Origin: Stigmatella aurantiaca
Lineage (GTDB): Bacteria > Myxococcota > Myxococcia > Myxococcales > Myxococcaceae
NCBI RefSeq assembly: GCF_900109545.1
Contig: NZ_FOAP01000022.1
Coordinates: 1-64,000 of the forward strand
Length of the DNA stretch: 64,000 nt
Direction of reading: 5' to 3'
Position numbers and translations under genes: made by a program. The notes under the pieces are model-generated. The model made no database searches. It was not told the DNA's origin and saw nothing but the letters and a program-made list of their open reading frames with translations. Positions 14,770-22,491 of the stretch are shown one piece after another; positions within the stretch are counted from its first letter, which is position 1, and each line of letters begins with the position of its first letter.

Positions 14770-15434
14770 GGCGTGGGGCAGTGGGCGCCGGTGTCGATCC
14801 ACGCCCGGATCAACGCACCGAACTCCTTCTGCGTCCCAGGCACCGGCTGGCGCCCCTCCCCGGGCGCCCAGCCCCAGCCCACCAGCACGTCCTCGGCCAT
14901 GTGGTGGTGGATGAACTCCAGGTCATGCCCCCCGTTGCGCTGGGGATCCTTGAGCTGCTGGCAGATCTCCCCGAGCGATTTGCCGATCCACGCCATCTCG
15001 ACGGGGGCCAGGGCCCACTTCGGATTGCCTGGAACGCTCTGGAGCGTCTCCCCCACCAGCCGGGTATTCGCCACCTGATGGCAGGCGGTGCAGGGAAGGC
15101 CCGGCACGCCGTGGCCATCGGCCCCGCCCGTCACGTGCGGCACATGCACGCGCTGCTCCAAGCCCTGCCGGGGGATGCCATCCGGCGGATGGCAGTTGGT
15201 GCAGCGCGGATGGGTGATGACGCGCCCCGCTTCCTTGAACAGCGCCACCGAGCGCGCCTTCCCATCCGTGATGGCGTCGAAGCGCGACACGGGCTGGAGC
15301 GGAGGATTCGTCCCCGCTTCCGTCCCCGCCCGGGGCGCGGGCTCCGGGGGCTCGGACTTCCGCGCCGCGCCCTTGCAGCCCGCCAGCGCCAGGGCCGCGC
15401 CCACCATCACCAGCAGGGAAGGAAGGCGCTTCAT
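14766..15434 (-). CDS. Diheme cytochrome c-like lipoprotein
   Basis: This 222-residue lipoprotein has a signal ending at LAGC (Cys20). Two CxxCH heme sites are visible, CTNCH (78-82) and CTACH (115-119), separated by about 35 residues, with Met and His residues available as distal ligands. It should sit at the inner or outer membrane facing the periplasm. The stop overlaps the convergent molybdenum-hydroxylase stop by 4 bases. Its ATG overlaps the upstream DUF3037 stop (ATGA), so it is translated from the HipA-like operon. Passing electrons from the molybdenum hydroxylase to the respiratory chain is inference from adjacency. Confidence 0.82.
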   Translation of the reverse strand: MKRLPSLLVMVGAALALAGCKGAARKSEPPEPAPRAGTEAGTNPPLQPVSRFDAITDGKARSVALFKEAGRVITHPRCTNCHPPDGIPRQGLEQRVHVPHVTGGADGHGVPGLPCTACHQVANTRLVGETLQSVPGNPKWALAPVEMAWIGKSLGEICQQLKDPQRNGGHDLEFIHHHMAEDVLVGWGWAPGEGRQPVPGTQKEFGALIRAWIDTGAHCPTP

Positions 15435-15814
15435 CGGACCATGCGCTCCATCAGGTGCTCCAGCGCCCGGCCCGGCTCCTCACACAGCCCCGAGTGCACC
15501 GGAGACGTCTGGAGAATGGTGCTGCGGGGCGCCACCAGCCAGTGCCACCGCTCCTTCTGGGGAAGCTGCCCGATGGGGCCCGAACCCCGGCCCCCCGCGC
15601 AGATGCGCGGAATGCTCTCCAGGTGGCCGCGCACCAGCGCCACATCCACCTCCGGCGCCAGCGCCCGCAGGCGCTGCTCGTCCAGCGCCACCTGGGCCGA
15701 CAGGAAGCGGCTCGTCAGGCAGTAGAGGATGACCCCTGCATTGAGGAACTCTCCCCGCTCCACGCGCGGCACCACCCGCACGATGGCGTAATCAAACGAG
15801 CTGCGCGCGAGCAC
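15431..15814 (-). CDS. DUF3037 protein
   Basis: This 127-residue small cytosolic protein begins FDYAIVRVVPRVERGEFLNAGVILY, the signature start of DUF3037. The start is GTG 15814 with GGAGGCGGAG just upstream, inside the end of the HipA-like gene (23-base overlap). DUF3037 genes typically follow a HipA-like kinase gene, as here, and the two are thought to act together; the biochemical role is not known. The end overlaps the cytochrome gene start by 4 bases. Confidence 0.85.
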   Translation of the reverse strand: MLARSSFDYAIVRVVPRVERGEFLNAGVILYCLTSRFLSAQVALDEQRLRALAPEVDVALVRGHLESIPRICAGGRGSGPIGQLPQKERWHWLVAPRSTILQTSPVHSGLCEEPGRALEHLMERMVR

Positions 15815-16577
15815 GCTCCGCCTCCTGGATGAACACGGCGCTCGACGCCAGGCGCTCCTTCAGGAACGCGACATAGGCGGCCCGGTGCTCCGCCTTGGAC
15901 GAAAAGCCCGCCTCCGCCTCCTCCAGCCACCCGTCGGGAATCAGCCCCACCACCTGCTCCAGCACCTCGGGCGTCAGCCGCTCGCGCAGGTGGGCCTCCG
16001 CCGCGCGCAGCTCCGAGGCCCACGGCAGCAGCACGTGGTCCTTGATGGGCGCGAACGCGCTCCGGGCCCGCTCCAGGTGCCCCTCCCACGAATGGTGGAA
16101 GTACAGCGCGGCCCCGTGGTCGATGAGCCGGAGCGTCTGGTGCCACACCAGCAGGTTCGGGTTCTTCGGCGTCCGGTCCACGTTCGTCACGTACGCATCG
16201 AAGCAGACGATGCCCGAGGCCTCCGCCGCCCCGGGCGCGGGCCCCGCCAGCGGATCAAACGTGATGGAGCCCGGCAGATAATCCATCCCCAGGTTCAACC
16301 CGGCGCTCGCCTTGATCAGGTCTCGAATCTCCCCGTCCGGCTCGGCGCGCCCCAGCACCGGGTCCAGCTGGATGAAGACCAGCTCCGGCACCCGCAGCCC
16401 GGCCGCCCGCGCCAGCTCGCCGGCAATCAGCTCGGCGATGAGCGCCTTGGGGCCCTGCCCGGCCCCCCGGAACTTCAAGACGTAGAGCCCCGCGTCCTCC
16501 GCCTCGACGATGGCGGGCAGGGAGCCGCCTTCCCGAAGCGGCGTCACATACCGGGTCGCCGTGACCGTTCTCATCAT
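15792..16577 (-). CDS. HipA-like kinase family protein
   Basis: This 261-residue protein is much shorter than full HipA (about 440 residues) and lacks its N-terminal subdomain. Kinase-like motifs are present: YVLKF (ATP-binding Lys), a catalytic loop in FDAYVTNVDRTPKNPNLLV where Asp and Asn fit the HipA N-x-D-R-x3-N pattern, and LIDHG as the metal-binding Asp. The ATG at 16577 (or 16574) follows a run of G in AAGGGGGGG. It is first in an operon with DUF3037 and the diheme lipoprotein. No HipB-like antitoxin is adjacent, so a persister toxin role is not supported; the substrate is unknown. Confidence 0.8.
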   Translation of the reverse strand: MMRTVTATRYVTPLREGGSLPAIVEAEDAGLYVLKFRGAGQGPKALIAELIAGELARAAGLRVPELVFIQLDPVLGRAEPDGEIRDLIKASAGLNLGMDYLPGSITFDPLAGPAPGAAEASGIVCFDAYVTNVDRTPKNPNLLVWHQTLRLIDHGAALYFHHSWEGHLERARSAFAPIKDHVLLPWASELRAAEAHLRERLTPEVLEQVVGLIPDGWLEEAEAGFSSKAEHRAAYVAFLKERLASSAVFIQEAERARAQLV

Positions 16578-16601: not shown

Positions 16602-18137
16602 CTACCCGGAGGAGGACTCCTGGGCATAGGAGGGCGGCTGGCGCGGCACCCGCACCGTGAAGGTGGTGCCCTGGCGCGCGTCCGAGTGGACATCGATGGA
16701 GCCCCCGTGCGCGCGAATGACGTGGTCCACGATGAACAGCCCCAGCCCCAGGCTCCGTCCGGAGGCCCCGTCGGACGGCTCCCGCCGCTTCATGGGCGCG
16801 AAGAGCCGGGGCAGCAGCTCCGAGGGGATGGGCGGCCCCTGGTTGTGGACCTCCAGGATGACCGCCTGCGCCTCGCCGCGCGTCGTCACCCGCACGGGCG
16901 TTCCCCGCGGGCTGTAGCGCAGCGCGTTCGTCACCAGGTTGGAGAGCACCTGGGCCATGCGGTCCGCATCCCAGTCTCCCTGGCTGCGGCCCTGGTGGAG
17001 TACCTCCACCTCGCGCTCCGGGAAGTTGAGCTGCACCTCGTCCACCACCTGCTGGGTGAGCTCCTGGAAGTCCAGCGGCTTGCGCACCACCCGCAGCCCG
17101 CCGCCCAGCCGCGCCTGCGTGAAGTCGAGCGTCGTGTCGATGAGCCGGTGCGCGCGCTCGGCCGAGGACAGGATGCGGTTGAGCGCATCGCGCATGCGCT
17201 CGTCGAGATCCCTGCGGCGCAGCACCATCACCGCCGAGAGGGTGATGGCGCTGATGGGGTTGCGCAGATCGTGCCCCACGATGCCCGCCAGGTACTGCTC
17301 GAACTCCGCCCGCTGCTGGGCCTCCTGCTCCTGGCGCTTCTGCTCGGAGATGTCCAGGGCCAGGGTGGCCAGCGCCACGGGCTGGCCCTCTTCGTCCGGA
17401 ACGAAGAAGAGGTCATGCTGGACGGGAATGGTGTTGCCCGTGCTCAGGTTGCGCAGCCGGAACTCTCCCCGCCACCGGCCCGTCTCCTGAAGGGCGGGCG
17501 TGAGCTGCTCCTCGCTCAGGAGCTTCTCCTCGGGCCCATAGAAGTCGGTCACCTTCAGCTGCGTCACGTCCTCCTTCTCCACCCCCACCATCTGGCGGCC
17601 CGCGGGGTTGAGGTACTGCATCTGGCCCTGCTGCGAGGCGAACCCGATGAAGTACGAGGAGTCGGCCACCACGGCCGCCAGGCGCTGGTGCTCCACCCGG
17701 AGGCGCATGCGCTCGGCGGACTCGGCCTGGAGCTGGCGCCGGAGCTGCTCCCGCTCCAGCGTGTTGCGCACGGCGCGGAACAGGCTGTCGGGGGTGACGT
17801 CCGACTTGACCAGATAGTCGGCCGCGCCGTCCTTGAGCGCCTGCGTGGCGATGCGCTCGTTGCCCCGCCCCGTCAGCATCACCACGGGCGGCGCATGGCT
17901 CCCGGCGCGTTCCTTCAGCCGCCGCAGGAACTTCAGGCCATCCATGCCCGGCAGGTGGTAGTCGAGCAGGATGCAGTCCACCGGCCGCGCGCAGCACACC
18001 TCCAGCGCCTGCTCGGCGTCCTCCTCCTCCAGGAAGGTGTAGCTGTACTCACCCACCTCCTGCAGGAAGGACCGGTAGGTGTTGCGGTCCTCGGGGCTGT
18101 CCTCGACCAGCAGCAGCGTCAATGAGGGCCGCGTCAT
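16602..18137 (-). CDS. Receiver-PAS-histidine kinase
   Basis: This 511-residue cytosolic signalling protein has a receiver at 1-125 (phospho-acceptor D59 in LLDYHLPGMDG, acidic pair E12-D13, Lys in YLVKSD), then a PAS domain (about 150-275), then HisKA with the H box GIVGHDLRNP (about 290) and an HATPase domain with N (NLVTNALRY) and G (SLGLGLFIVDH) boxes. The receiver is N-terminal, so its phosphorylation probably tunes the kinase. The ATG overlaps the stop of the single-receiver gene upstream (ATGA). It is the last gene of the phytochrome operon. Confidence 0.92.
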   Translation of the reverse strand: MTRPSLTLLLVEDSPEDRNTYRSFLQEVGEYSYTFLEEEDAEQALEVCCARPVDCILLDYHLPGMDGLKFLRRLKERAGSHAPPVVMLTGRGNERIATQALKDGAADYLVKSDVTPDSLFRAVRNTLEREQLRRQLQAESAERMRLRVEHQRLAAVVADSSYFIGFASQQGQMQYLNPAGRQMVGVEKEDVTQLKVTDFYGPEEKLLSEEQLTPALQETGRWRGEFRLRNLSTGNTIPVQHDLFFVPDEEGQPVALATLALDISEQKRQEQEAQQRAEFEQYLAGIVGHDLRNPISAITLSAVMVLRRRDLDERMRDALNRILSSAERAHRLIDTTLDFTQARLGGGLRVVRKPLDFQELTQQVVDEVQLNFPEREVEVLHQGRSQGDWDADRMAQVLSNLVTNALRYSPRGTPVRVTTRGEAQAVILEVHNQGPPIPSELLPRLFAPMKRREPSDGASGRSLGLGLFIVDHVIRAHGGSIDVHSDARQGTTFTVRVPRQPPSYAQESSSG

Positions 18138-18586
18138 CGCCAGCGCCTCTCCCGGTTTGGCGCCAGGGGCGGGACGACGAACTCCAGCCAGAACTCCCTC
18201 AGGAGCCGCACCATGCGCTCGAACCGGTCCAGATCCACGGGCTTGAGCAGGTAGGCACTGCTCCCCAGCTGGTAGCAGCTCTGGACATCCTTCGGGTTGT
18301 CCGAAGTGGAAAAGACAATGACAGGAATGCTCTTCAAGAAGGCATCGGTCTTGATGTGCTCCAGCACCTGGCGCCCATCCATTCCCGGCAGGTTGAGATC
18401 CAACAAGACAAGTCCCGGCCGAAGGGACTGCTCACCTTCCGGGTAACGCCCCAGTCGCGAAAGAAACTCCAACGTCTCTTCTCCATCCGCACACCGGTGC
18501 ACCGGGTTGGGGATGTCCGCGTTGCGAAACGCGTGTTGGAGCATGCCAAAGTCCTCGTCGTTGTCCTCGACCACCAGGATAGGCAT
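18134..18586 (-). CDS. Single-domain response regulator
   Basis: This 150-residue protein is a receiver only (CheY/Rcp1 type), with the acidic pair in VVEDND (E7-D8), D63 in LLDLNLPGMDG, Thr/Ser in IVFSTSDNP and Lys in YLLKPVDLDRF. The final FxxxF-type segment (FERMVRLLREFWLE) is like the Rcp1 family of phytochrome-partner regulators. It lies 4 bases after the phytochrome gene and overlaps the next kinase gene, so it is the obvious phosphotransfer partner of the phytochrome. It has no output domain. The start is ATG 18586; longer frames run antisense into the phytochrome. Confidence 0.93.
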   Translation of the reverse strand: MPILVVEDNDEDFGMLQHAFRNADIPNPVHRCADGEETLEFLSRLGRYPEGEQSLRPGLVLLDLNLPGMDGRQVLEHIKTDAFLKSIPVIVFSTSDNPKDVQSCYQLGSSAYLLKPVDLDRFERMVRLLREFWLEFVVPPLAPNRERRWR

Positions 18587-18590
18587 TCCG

Positions 18591-20870
18591 CTATTCACCG
18601 GCAGGCTCCGGGGACCCCATCTCCGCGGCCAAGGTGAAGAAGAAGGCGGAGCCCTGCCCCGGCGTGGACTCCAGCCAGATGCGGCCGTTGTGCCGCTCGA
18701 TGATGCGCTTGACGATGGTGAGGCCCGTGCCCGTGCCGCCGCCGAAGCGGTCGCGCCCGTGCAGCCGCTTGAAGATGCGGAAGATGGTCTCGTGGTACTC
18801 GGGCTTGATGCCGATGCCGTTGTCCCGCACGAAGTAGGCCACGCGCGCCTCGCTCCCCTCCCGCACCGCCCCCAGCTCCACCCACCGCGCGGCCTTGTCG
18901 TTGTACTTGATGGCGTTGGTGATGAGGTTGGTGAACACCTCCGCGATGCGCACCCGGTCACAGCGCGCCGGGGGCAGCGGGTGGGGGATGCGCACCTCCA
19001 CGTTCGCCTCCTCCAGCCGGGACCGGAGCAGCTCCAGCACCTGGTTCACCACCTCGTTGAGGTCCGTCTCCCGCAGCAGCAGCTCGGTGCGCCCCACCTG
19101 GGCATAGTGCAGGAGCGAGTTGATGAGGCTCTCCATGCGCTGGGTGAGCCGCACCACGGTGTCCAGCCGCTCCCTGGGGCCGGTGGGCAGAACCTCTCCC
19201 GCCTCGCGCAGGGCCAGCAGGGTGTAGTTGTGAATGCCGCGCAGGGGCTCCTTCAAGTCGTGGCTCGCCGCGTACGCGAACGCATCCAGCTCCACGTTGC
19301 TGCGCTCCAGCTCCGTGTTGAGCTTGAGCAGCTCCTCGCTGCGCTGCAGCGCCACGTCGATGATGGAGCGGCGCAGCTCGGCGGCCGCCTCCACCTCGTA
19401 CCCCTTCCAGGGCAGGCACCGGCCGCGCACCGTCTCCTTCCACTGCTCGAAGGACTTGCGCGGGTGGATCCGGGGCTCGCCCCTGTCCACCTCCACGGGC
19501 TTCGTGGGGTTGCCGCCCCAGCTCACCGTCTGCACCACCTCCGGGCGGAACCAGAGCACGAAGTTGTTGCGCCCCCGGGACATGGAGATGGCGATGAGCC
19601 CGGCGGCCACCTGCTGGAAGTTCGCGGCCTCGGGGTACTCGCTGGCGAGCCGGTCCGTGCAGAACAGCCCATCGCCGGTGCGCTCCCCCAGCCACTCGAT
19701 GAGGCCGGAGAGGTGCTCGTCCGCGGGGGCCTGGCCCAGCACCGTCGTGCGCCCGTGGAAGTGGATGGCGGCGCCGTGCGCGTGGACCAGCTCCAGCAGC
19801 GCGGCCTCCTGGCGGGCCAGCTCCGAGACGAAGTCCACCTCGCGCGCCATGCGCTCCAGCAGCGAGGCATGAATGGACTTGGCGCGGATGCGCTGGCCGT
19901 AGTCCTCGTTGCCCTCCTTCACCGCCAGCAGGCTGGACATCACCTCGCCGAGGAACTCGCACGCGGTGCGGACCTCGTAGGGCACGTACTTGGGCCCGGA
20001 GACGTGGGTGCAGGAGATGAGCCCCCAGAGCTTGCCGTCCCGCATGAGCGAGATGCTCATGGAGGCCTGCACCCCCATGTTGTGCAGGTACTCCAGGTGG
20101 ATGGGGGACACGCTGCGCAGCACCGAGAAGGACATGTCCAGCGGTGCCTCATGCCCCGGCAGGGCCAGCACGCGCGCCGGCTGGTAATCGATGGTGGAGA
20201 TGATGCGCAGCCCGTTGAGCTGATACAGCTCGCGCGCCTGGCGCGGAATGTCCGAGGCGGGAAAGCGCAGCCCCAGGTAGGGGTCGGCCCGGGCATCCCG
20301 GGCCTCGGCCAGCACCGAGCCATGCCACTCCGCGTCGAAGCGGTAGATGATGGCGCGGTCGAAGCCGGTGAGGTTGCGGACCTCCTGCACGACGGCCTCG
20401 CACAGCTCCTGGAGATCCCTCGCGTCACGCAGGCGCGACAGGCCCTCGCGCACCCCGTGGAAGAAGCTCAGGAAGGGCACGGGCTCGCGCTGCGCGGAGG
20501 GCTCCAGCTCCAGGATGAGCTTGCCCTGGTGGCGGTGGGCAATGCCGTCGAAGAAGCGGTCCACGCTCCCCACGCGCCAGACCACCTTCAGCGGGTTGAG
20601 CTGCTTGAGCCGCTCACTGCGCAGCCCCGCCTCCAGGGGCTCGCGCACCGAGGGCTCGATGAAGCGGCCCAGCTCCGCGCCCAGGAGCTGGCCTGCGGGG
20701 GTGCCCAGCACGCTGGGCGCGTTCTCGCTCACGTGCGTGAGGCGCAGCTCCGGCTCGCTGAGCACCAGCAGCACGCCGTGCGGCTGGATGGCGCCCGGAA
20801 TGTGGATGGGCTCCCGGTCACAATTGGAGAGATCGACCTCGGGGCTGCTCCGGGCCAGTTCAGTGCTCAT
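18591..20870 (-). CDS. Bacteriophytochrome histidine kinase
   Basis: This 759-residue red/far-red photoreceptor kinase has PAS (1-120), GAF (about 140-310), PHY (about 320-500), HisKA (H box SHDLKEPLRG, about 535) and HATPase (N, G1 and G2 boxes) domains. The biliverdin-attachment Cys17 sits in NCDREPIHIPGAIQPHG. The GAF core motif PASDIPRQ places Asp at 207 and His258 lies in SPIHLEYL. The normally invariant second His (CHH) reads C287-T288-H289, so Thr replaces it; I recall this same change in Stigmatella aurantiaca SaBphP1 (T289). ATG 20870 overlaps the upstream kinase gene by 11 bases. No haem oxygenase gene is in the window. Light control of fruiting is the known role in Stigmatella. Confidence 0.95.
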   Translation of the reverse strand: MSTELARSSPEVDLSNCDREPIHIPGAIQPHGVLLVLSEPELRLTHVSENAPSVLGTPAGQLLGAELGRFIEPSVREPLEAGLRSERLKQLNPLKVVWRVGSVDRFFDGIAHRHQGKLILELEPSAQREPVPFLSFFHGVREGLSRLRDARDLQELCEAVVQEVRNLTGFDRAIIYRFDAEWHGSVLAEARDARADPYLGLRFPASDIPRQARELYQLNGLRIISTIDYQPARVLALPGHEAPLDMSFSVLRSVSPIHLEYLHNMGVQASMSISLMRDGKLWGLISCTHVSGPKYVPYEVRTACEFLGEVMSSLLAVKEGNEDYGQRIRAKSIHASLLERMAREVDFVSELARQEAALLELVHAHGAAIHFHGRTTVLGQAPADEHLSGLIEWLGERTGDGLFCTDRLASEYPEAANFQQVAAGLIAISMSRGRNNFVLWFRPEVVQTVSWGGNPTKPVEVDRGEPRIHPRKSFEQWKETVRGRCLPWKGYEVEAAAELRRSIIDVALQRSEELLKLNTELERSNVELDAFAYAASHDLKEPLRGIHNYTLLALREAGEVLPTGPRERLDTVVRLTQRMESLINSLLHYAQVGRTELLLRETDLNEVVNQVLELLRSRLEEANVEVRIPHPLPPARCDRVRIAEVFTNLITNAIKYNDKAARWVELGAVREGSEARVAYFVRDNGIGIKPEYHETIFRIFKRLHGRDRFGGGTGTGLTIVKRIIERHNGRIWLESTPGQGSAFFFTLAAEMGSPEPAGE

Positions 20871-22491
20871 CCGGTGCCCCCCCCGCGAGCTTGCTCGGCG
20901 GGGGATTGCGCGGAAGCTCCACGGTGAAGGTGGCCCCCTGGCCCGGCTCGCTGCACACGGACACCTGCCCTCCCATGGCCTCCAGCACCTGCCGCGTGAT
21001 GAACAGCCCCAGCCCCAATCCTCCGTAGTGCCGGTCCGACACCCCCCGCTCGAAGCGGCCAAAGAGGCGCGTGCGCACCGACTCGTCCATGCCGATGCCC
21101 TCGTCCCACACTGTGAGCCGCACCTGCTCGCCCAGCTCCTCGAGCCGCAGCCGGACGGGGCGGCCCGCCCCGAACTTGAGGGCATTGGACAGCAGGTTCG
21201 TCACCACCTGCTCCAGCCGCAGCGCATCCCAGTGGCCCAGCACGCGCGCCGGGGCGGTAACTTCCACCGCGCTGCCCACCCGCATCGCCTGGGTCTCGAA
21301 CACCGAGACCACCGAGCGCACGATGTCCGCCACGTTGACGTCCTGCTCGCGGCGAAGCGACAGCCGGCCGCTGATGATGCGCGTGGTGTCCAGCAAGCTG
21401 TCCACCAGCGCCGCCAGCCGCCGGACCTGGCCATCTGCGGACTCCAGGTGCTTGTGCAGGTTCCGCGTACCGGACGGGACGTGAAGCCCGTCCACCTCCT
21501 TGCGCATCACCTGCACCCGCAGGGACAGGGACGTGAGCGGGGTCTTCAGCTCGTGGCTGGCCACGGACAGGAACTCATCCCGCAGGCGCACGGCTTCCCG
21601 CAGGCCGACCATGAGCCGCTCCCGCTCCGCCTCCGCCATCTTCGCCTCGGTGACGTCCGTCATGAACCCTTCGATGAACCGCAGCGCACCCTCCGGGCCG
21701 AAGACCCCCGCGGACCGGGCCCACATCCAGCGCGGCTCCCCGTCCCTTCGCCGGATGCGGTACTGGGCCGTCAGCAGCCGGCCGTCCGCGAACGCCTCCC
21801 GCGCCTCCTCGGCGATGCGCGCCACATCCTCGGCCGCCATGAGGTCCGTCCAGAGCGTGGGGTTGGCGCCGAACTCCAGGGCCGAGTAGCCGGTGAGCGC
21901 CTGGCAGCCCTCGCTGATGAAGGAGAGGCTCCAGTCCGGGCGGCACCGGAAGACCATGCCGGGCAGGTTGCCCATGAGCATCGACAGCGTGCGCTGGCTC
22001 TCGAGCAGCGCCTCCTCCGCCTGGAGGCGCCGGGCCTCCAGCACCCGCCGCTCGCGCTCGCCCAGGGCATTCTCCTGGCGTCTGAGGGACTCACGCTCGT
22101 GGTAGAGGTCCACGAAGACCCGCACCTTGGCGCGCAGGGCGTCCGGCTCCACCGGCTTGCGCAGGTAGTCCACCGCGCCGCTCGCGTATCCGCGCACGAT
22201 GGCCGCCTCCTCCCGCCGCGCGCCGGACAGGAAGATGAGCGGCACGCGCCGGTGGGGCGCATGCTCCCGGATGAGCCGGGCCACCTCGAAGCCGTCCATC
22301 CCCGGCATCCGCACATCCATCAGGATGAGCGCGAACTCCCGCGCCTCCAGGTACTGGAGCGCCTCCTCTCCCGAGGCCGCCTTAACTATTTGGAGATCCA
22401 ACGAATTGAGAGAGCGCTCGACGGCCGCCAGCTCGAAGGGCTGATCATCCACCACCAAGATGGTGGCTTGCTGTTCACGCTCGACGTGCAA
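20860..22491 (-). CDS. Receiver-PAS-histidine kinase
   Basis: This 543-residue protein has a receiver at 8-125 (D15-D16 pair, D59 in LMDVRMPGMDG, Lys in YLRKPVEPD), a coiled-coil linker (about 130-165), a PAS/PAC domain (about 168-290), HisKA (ASHELKTP, about 305) and HATPase with N (NLLSNALKF) and G (GLGLGLFITRQ) boxes. The start is a TTG at 22491 with GGAGG 5 bases upstream; no ATG fits before the receiver. It is the first gene of the operon that includes the bacteriophytochrome and overlaps that gene by 11 bases, so it is probably co-translated with it. Confidence 0.9.
   Translation of the reverse strand: MHVEREQQATILVVDDQPFELAAVERSLNSLDLQIVKAASGEEALQYLEAREFALILMDVRMPGMDGFEVARLIREHAPHRRVPLIFLSGARREEAAIVRGYASGAVDYLRKPVEPDALRAKVRVFVDLYHERESLRRQENALGERERRVLEARRLQAEEALLESQRTLSMLMGNLPGMVFRCRPDWSLSFISEGCQALTGYSALEFGANPTLWTDLMAAEDVARIAEEAREAFADGRLLTAQYRIRRRDGEPRWMWARSAGVFGPEGALRFIEGFMTDVTEAKMAEAERERLMVGLREAVRLRDEFLSVASHELKTPLTSLSLRVQVMRKEVDGLHVPSGTRNLHKHLESADGQVRRLAALVDSLLDTTRIISGRLSLRREQDVNVADIVRSVVSVFETQAMRVGSAVEVTAPARVLGHWDALRLEQVVTNLLSNALKFGAGRPVRLRLEELGEQVRLTVWDEGIGMDESVRTRLFGRFERGVSDRHYGGLGLGLFITRQVLEAMGGQVSVCSEPGQGATFTVELPRNPPPSKLAGGAPDEH

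Follow-up and report, generated by a model that had tools for sequence, protein, structure and literature searches.

Where classical bacteriophytochromes (BphPs) read A/S-C-H-H in the chromophore pocket, a phytochrome gene in the window (the whole stretch of DNA analysed, 64,000 nucleotides) reads S-C-T-H. Does the encoded protein truly lack the pocket histidine, and is the loss peculiar to it or a trait of its lineage? The gene, here called BphP1, its key codons and its neighbours are arranged as follows.

16602..18137, minus strand: REC-PAS-HisKA-HATPase hybrid kinase, downstream of BphP1, 511 aa, sharing a 4-base ATGA overlap with the regulator gene
18134..18586, minus strand: single-domain response regulator of the Rcp type, 150 aa, with Asp63 as its likely phospho-acceptor, beginning 4 bases past the BphP1 stop
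18591..20870, minus strand: BphP1 open reading frame, ATG at 20870, stop at 18591, translated to 759 aa
19449..19463, minus strand: PRKSF tongue motif, residues 470-474 (SaBphP1 471-475), coordinates derived from residue numbers
20004-20015, minus strand: S286-C287-T288-H289, codons TCC TGC ACC CAC; S286 aligns with SaBphP1 Ser287
20007-20009, minus strand: T288, codon ACC, DrBphP His290 / SaBphP1 Thr289 site
20097-20099, minus strand: His258, codon CAC, equivalent to SaBphP1 His259 and DrBphP His260
20250-20252, minus strand: Asp207 of PASDIP, codon GAC, equivalent to SaBphP1 Asp208
20820-20822, minus strand: Cys17, the biliverdin-attachment cysteine, codon TGT, equivalent to SaBphP1 Cys18
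20860..22491, minus strand: REC-PAS-HisKA-HATPase hybrid kinase, directly upstream of BphP1, 543 aa, overlapping it by 11 bases

Five Pfam domains, PAS_2, GAF, PHY, HisKA and HATPase_c, all score above cut-off in BphP1 (PAS at residues 17-124, GAF 152-316, PHY 331-511, HATPase_c 638-748). They form the PAS-GAF-PHY core followed by HisKA and HATPase_c of a bacteriophytochrome histidine kinase, with the HisKA phospho-acceptor at H537 in the H-box. Cys17, the PASDIP Asp207 and the GAF His258 were found in the translation where an earlier note on this DNA had placed them, as was the pocket reading C287-T288-H289 instead of CHH; the histidine that classical CHH BphPs have at the DrBphP His290 site is here Thr288. 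On these features of the sequence, BphP1 is almost certainly a biliverdin-binding red/far-red photoreceptor histidine kinase. Covalent binding of biliverdin and reversible Pr/Pfr conversion are known for its ortholog, SaBphP1 of Stigmatella aurantiaca (PMC6126659).

The best match of BphP1 among solved structures in the PDB is SaBphP1 (6bao, wild type, and 6bap, T289H; E ~1e-298), with 444 of 512 residues of the photosensory core identical (86.7%), so the earlier suggestion of a close relative holds. The stretch W-G-L-I-S-C-T aligns with wild-type SaBphP1 (S287-C288-T289-Q290) without a gap, T288 pairing with Thr289 and H289 with Gln290, which puts T288 at the DrBphP His290 site, as claimed; that SaBphP1 bears the same substitution is borne out by the 6bao sequence and by PMC6126659. 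The earlier note had named the alignment that would speak against it: one shifted by a single residue, in which H289 is the pocket histidine and the window protein a classical phytochrome. Such a shift is suggested by the His that follows T288, since classical proteins read CHH, and by the following loop, which is one residue longer. The ungapped SaBphP1 alignment, however, rules out H289 at the His290 site: W-G-L-I-S-C shows no gap against relatives either, and SaBphP1 has Gln at the H289 position, yet its Thr289 lies in the pocket in the crystals (PMC6126659). Moreover, the H289 position holds a second His, or Asn, even in classical proteins and varies among the orthologs (H, D, Q). We therefore find the shifted alignment barely credible.

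SaBphP1 is characterised by spectra and structures (PDB 4rq9, 6baf, 6bak, 6bao and 6bap). It and the window protein share domain order, gene neighbourhood, the PASDIP and PRKSF motifs and the residues Cys18, Asp208, His259, Tyr262, Ser287, Cys288, Thr289, Pro471, Arg472 and Ser474 (SaBphP1 numbering); all pocket residues checked are identical, bar the neighbouring Q290, which is H289 in the window protein. BphP1 is one residue shorter N-terminally and departs from SaBphP1 at 19 positions in residues 130-330, among them W221>G, P226>S and the exchange Q290>H289 next to the Thr; the two proteins may therefore not share the same spectra. A genome of the same genus, G078, encodes SaBphP1 itself (L095; its first 513 residues match the crystal construct at 513 of 513), and the neighbourhood there corresponds to the window gene for gene; the genus is accordingly that of S. 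aurantiaca. The window gene is thus, with very high probability judging by sequence, orthologous to SaBphP1 and belongs to a sibling species; the nearest BphP1, in G079, is 93% identical. Both the Ser-Cys-Thr motif and monophyly with SaBphP1 place it in this orthologous group, as does the gene order BphP1, Rcp-type regulator, REC-PAS-kinase.

The photochemical consequences of the Thr are documented for SaBphP1. At 700 nm Thr impedes Pfr formation, and little of the wild-type protein reaches Pfr; at 660 nm no such hindrance is seen, and the wild-type PAS-GAF-PHY core attains a classical Pfr spectrum. The wild type and T289H behave alike at 660 nm and differently at 700 nm (PMC6126659). The earlier statement that the substitution limits photoconversion hence applies to SaBphP1 at 700 nm but not at 660 nm, and needs this qualifier. 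In the T289H mutant His289 bonds ring D, and the equivalent His in other phytochromes bonds the ring-C propionate in Pfr (PMC6126659); Ser287 has been proposed to hold ring D in place of His (PMC6748860). Since this Ser and all checked pocket residues are kept, we expect the window protein to behave in the same way. The biliverdin would probably come from a heme oxygenase whose gene lies apart from BphP1, beside the paralog BphP2 or on another contig; it would attach to Cys17 and isomerise at C15=C16 in the light. As the histidine is missing, ring D would be held only loosely, by Ser286, leaving Pfr poorly stabilised and the switch wavelength-dependent, and the PRKSF tongue would relay the change to the kinase His537. 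The likely partner of the kinase, as suggested by gene order, is Asp63 of the adjacent Rcp-type regulator; the two flanking REC-PAS kinases could possibly be partners as well.

To see how widespread the Thr pocket is, we searched 145 genomes of the order for PHY domains and found phytochromes in 48; a search of the phylum added two. Pocket motifs in the order are of three types: A-C-H-H (with one S-C-H-H), S-C-T and S-C-G/A. S-C-T was found in 13 intact genes of 13 genomes, the window included, and a degenerate DNA pattern for WGLISCT hit exactly these 13 of 189 Myxococcota genomes, always at BphP1. Across the 13 intact orthologs, which range down to 66% identity, Thr is invariant and the residue after it is not; all of them retain Cys, PASDIP, His258 and the tongue motif, and the window protein has intact kinase boxes. 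A frameshifted BphP1 copy in another genome, G080, reads S-C-T as well. Because the same Thr occurs in every intact ortholog and in this copy, T288 is not a product of chance or sequencing error, and the earlier alternative of a conserved lineage trait is upheld alongside that of close kinship. In the G080 copy (L164, contig C33) the N-terminal PAS-GAF part is out of frame, and the homologous reading frame is restored immediately ahead of GLISCT; the copy may be a pseudogene or, the assembly being a draft, an assembly or sequencing error. Outside the myxobacteria, the pattern was run against genomes of Pseudomonadota (398) and Cyanobacteria (292), a sample whose BphP-bearing genomes were not counted, so that the result weighs little: all 16 matches read lay outside phytochrome frames (one further match, G605 C266, was left out of the reading).

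The Thr proteins form one clade, both in a first quick tree of 83 rows (SH-aLRT 100) and in a 44-row tree built with the four motif residues masked (100/100). In the latter, myxobacterial BphPs with Gly or Ala (L115, L116, L118, L119, L120, L148) also form a clade (100/97), sister to the Thr clade at 93/91. The first tree left the two groups apart; a constrained tree joining them was not rejected and had the better likelihood. Like BphP1, the SCG/SCA proteins lack the pocket His and have Ser before Cys and a loop one residue longer; they differ in having Gly or Ala for Thr and Asn next, and are ~43-47% identical to it. As the two clades are sisters, one loss of the histidine suffices within the myxobacteria, and most simply it was lost once. 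A separate loss, to Met or Leu, occurred in the proteobacterial sequences L048, L049, L062 and L072. In the match regions of these BphPs, which retain Cys and PASDIP, the His260 site is occupied by Tyr, so that both pocket histidines are missing; L048_2, another protein of L048, has Cys and Lys at the His260 and His290 sites. Four myxobacterial BphPs (L094, L114, L097, L117) have an intact CHH and Tyr in place of His258.

Ser precedes Cys in 23 of 24 His-less rows, the exception being L048_2, and in 7 of 59 His rows. These raw counts are striking, but they amount to two or three independent changes, and a coupling of Ser286 to the loss of His is not significant; the one-residue longer loop, considered as another coupled change, fares no better.

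The core of BphP1, Rcp-type regulator and REC-PAS-kinase is kept in all 13 other distinct loci compared (L153-L165; L003 lies on the same contig as L165), whereas only loci of the Stigmatella type and that of G083 carry the upstream REC-PAS-kinase at full length. In these same loci the operon adjoins a pair formed by a HipA-like kinase (PF20613) and an overlapping DUF3037 gene, at 15431-16577 on the minus strand in the window. No heme oxygenase gene was found in the window, in the 13 other BphP1 loci or in the 5 Gly/Ala loci searched. In contrast, one lies beside all 13 classical BphP2 loci (L121-L133), and in each of the 13 genomes the intact Thr gene is accompanied by a classical A-C-H-H BphP. 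The window's own genome (G000, 9.37 Mb) has its second, A-C-H-H BphP at C19:26428 (L129) and heme oxygenases at C19:24876, beside BphP2, and on C2. This BphP2 and its ortholog SaBphP2 resemble BphP1 in architecture and chromophore Cys, but are only ~42% identical to it, with a classical pocket and a heme oxygenase directly adjacent.

Why was the histidine lost? The universal presence of a CHH BphP in the 13 Thr genomes could mean that BphP1 is a redundant, relaxed paralog beside BphP2, decaying neutrally and heading for loss. Intact BphP1 is indeed absent from four of seven genomes of the genus, one of them being G080 with its frameshifted copy, and the BphP1 loci have no dedicated heme oxygenase. 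Against such decay, however, stand the fixation of Thr beside a variable residue, the integrity of the other signature residues and kinase boxes, the conserved operon core and the persisting photoactivity of SaBphP1 (PMC6126659), all of which make it improbable. The same pairing with CHH proteins would alternatively suit a tuned pocket, by which the Thr/Gly/Ala lineage senses another part of the red band, or another fluence, than BphP2, so that the pair compares light qualities. The wavelength dependence of the difference between wild-type SaBphP1 and T289H is consistent with tuning, as is the Ser that accompanies His loss, although the latter association is not significant and Ser also occurs in proteins with His; we regard tuning as possible but doubtful.

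The Thr substitution is a known trait, published for SaBphP1 in 2018 (spectra and structures in PMC6126659, further work in PMC6748860), and the window gene adds one more ortholog of a characterised protein; the finding as a whole is ordinary and well explained. What is new beyond this is modest: fixation in a single clade, a heme oxygenase gene beside the classical paralog but not beside BphP1, and conserved partner genes. A more speculative and rather unlikely proposal is that the myxobacterial Thr/Gly/Ala pocket has a single origin and was kept as a second, wavelength-discriminating channel using the chromophore from the BphP2 operon, the BphP1/BphP2 pair reading red versus far-red for fruiting. 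A limited literature search yielded no report of a bphP deletion in a myxobacterium. The Thr pocket has been called 'not evolutionarily understood' (PMC6126659). Our survey shows it to be a fixed trait of one ortholog group, always accompanied by a classical BphP in the same genome and with no heme oxygenase gene in its own locus, and the orthologs, at 66-93% identity, are natural variants for testing the role of the pocket histidine.
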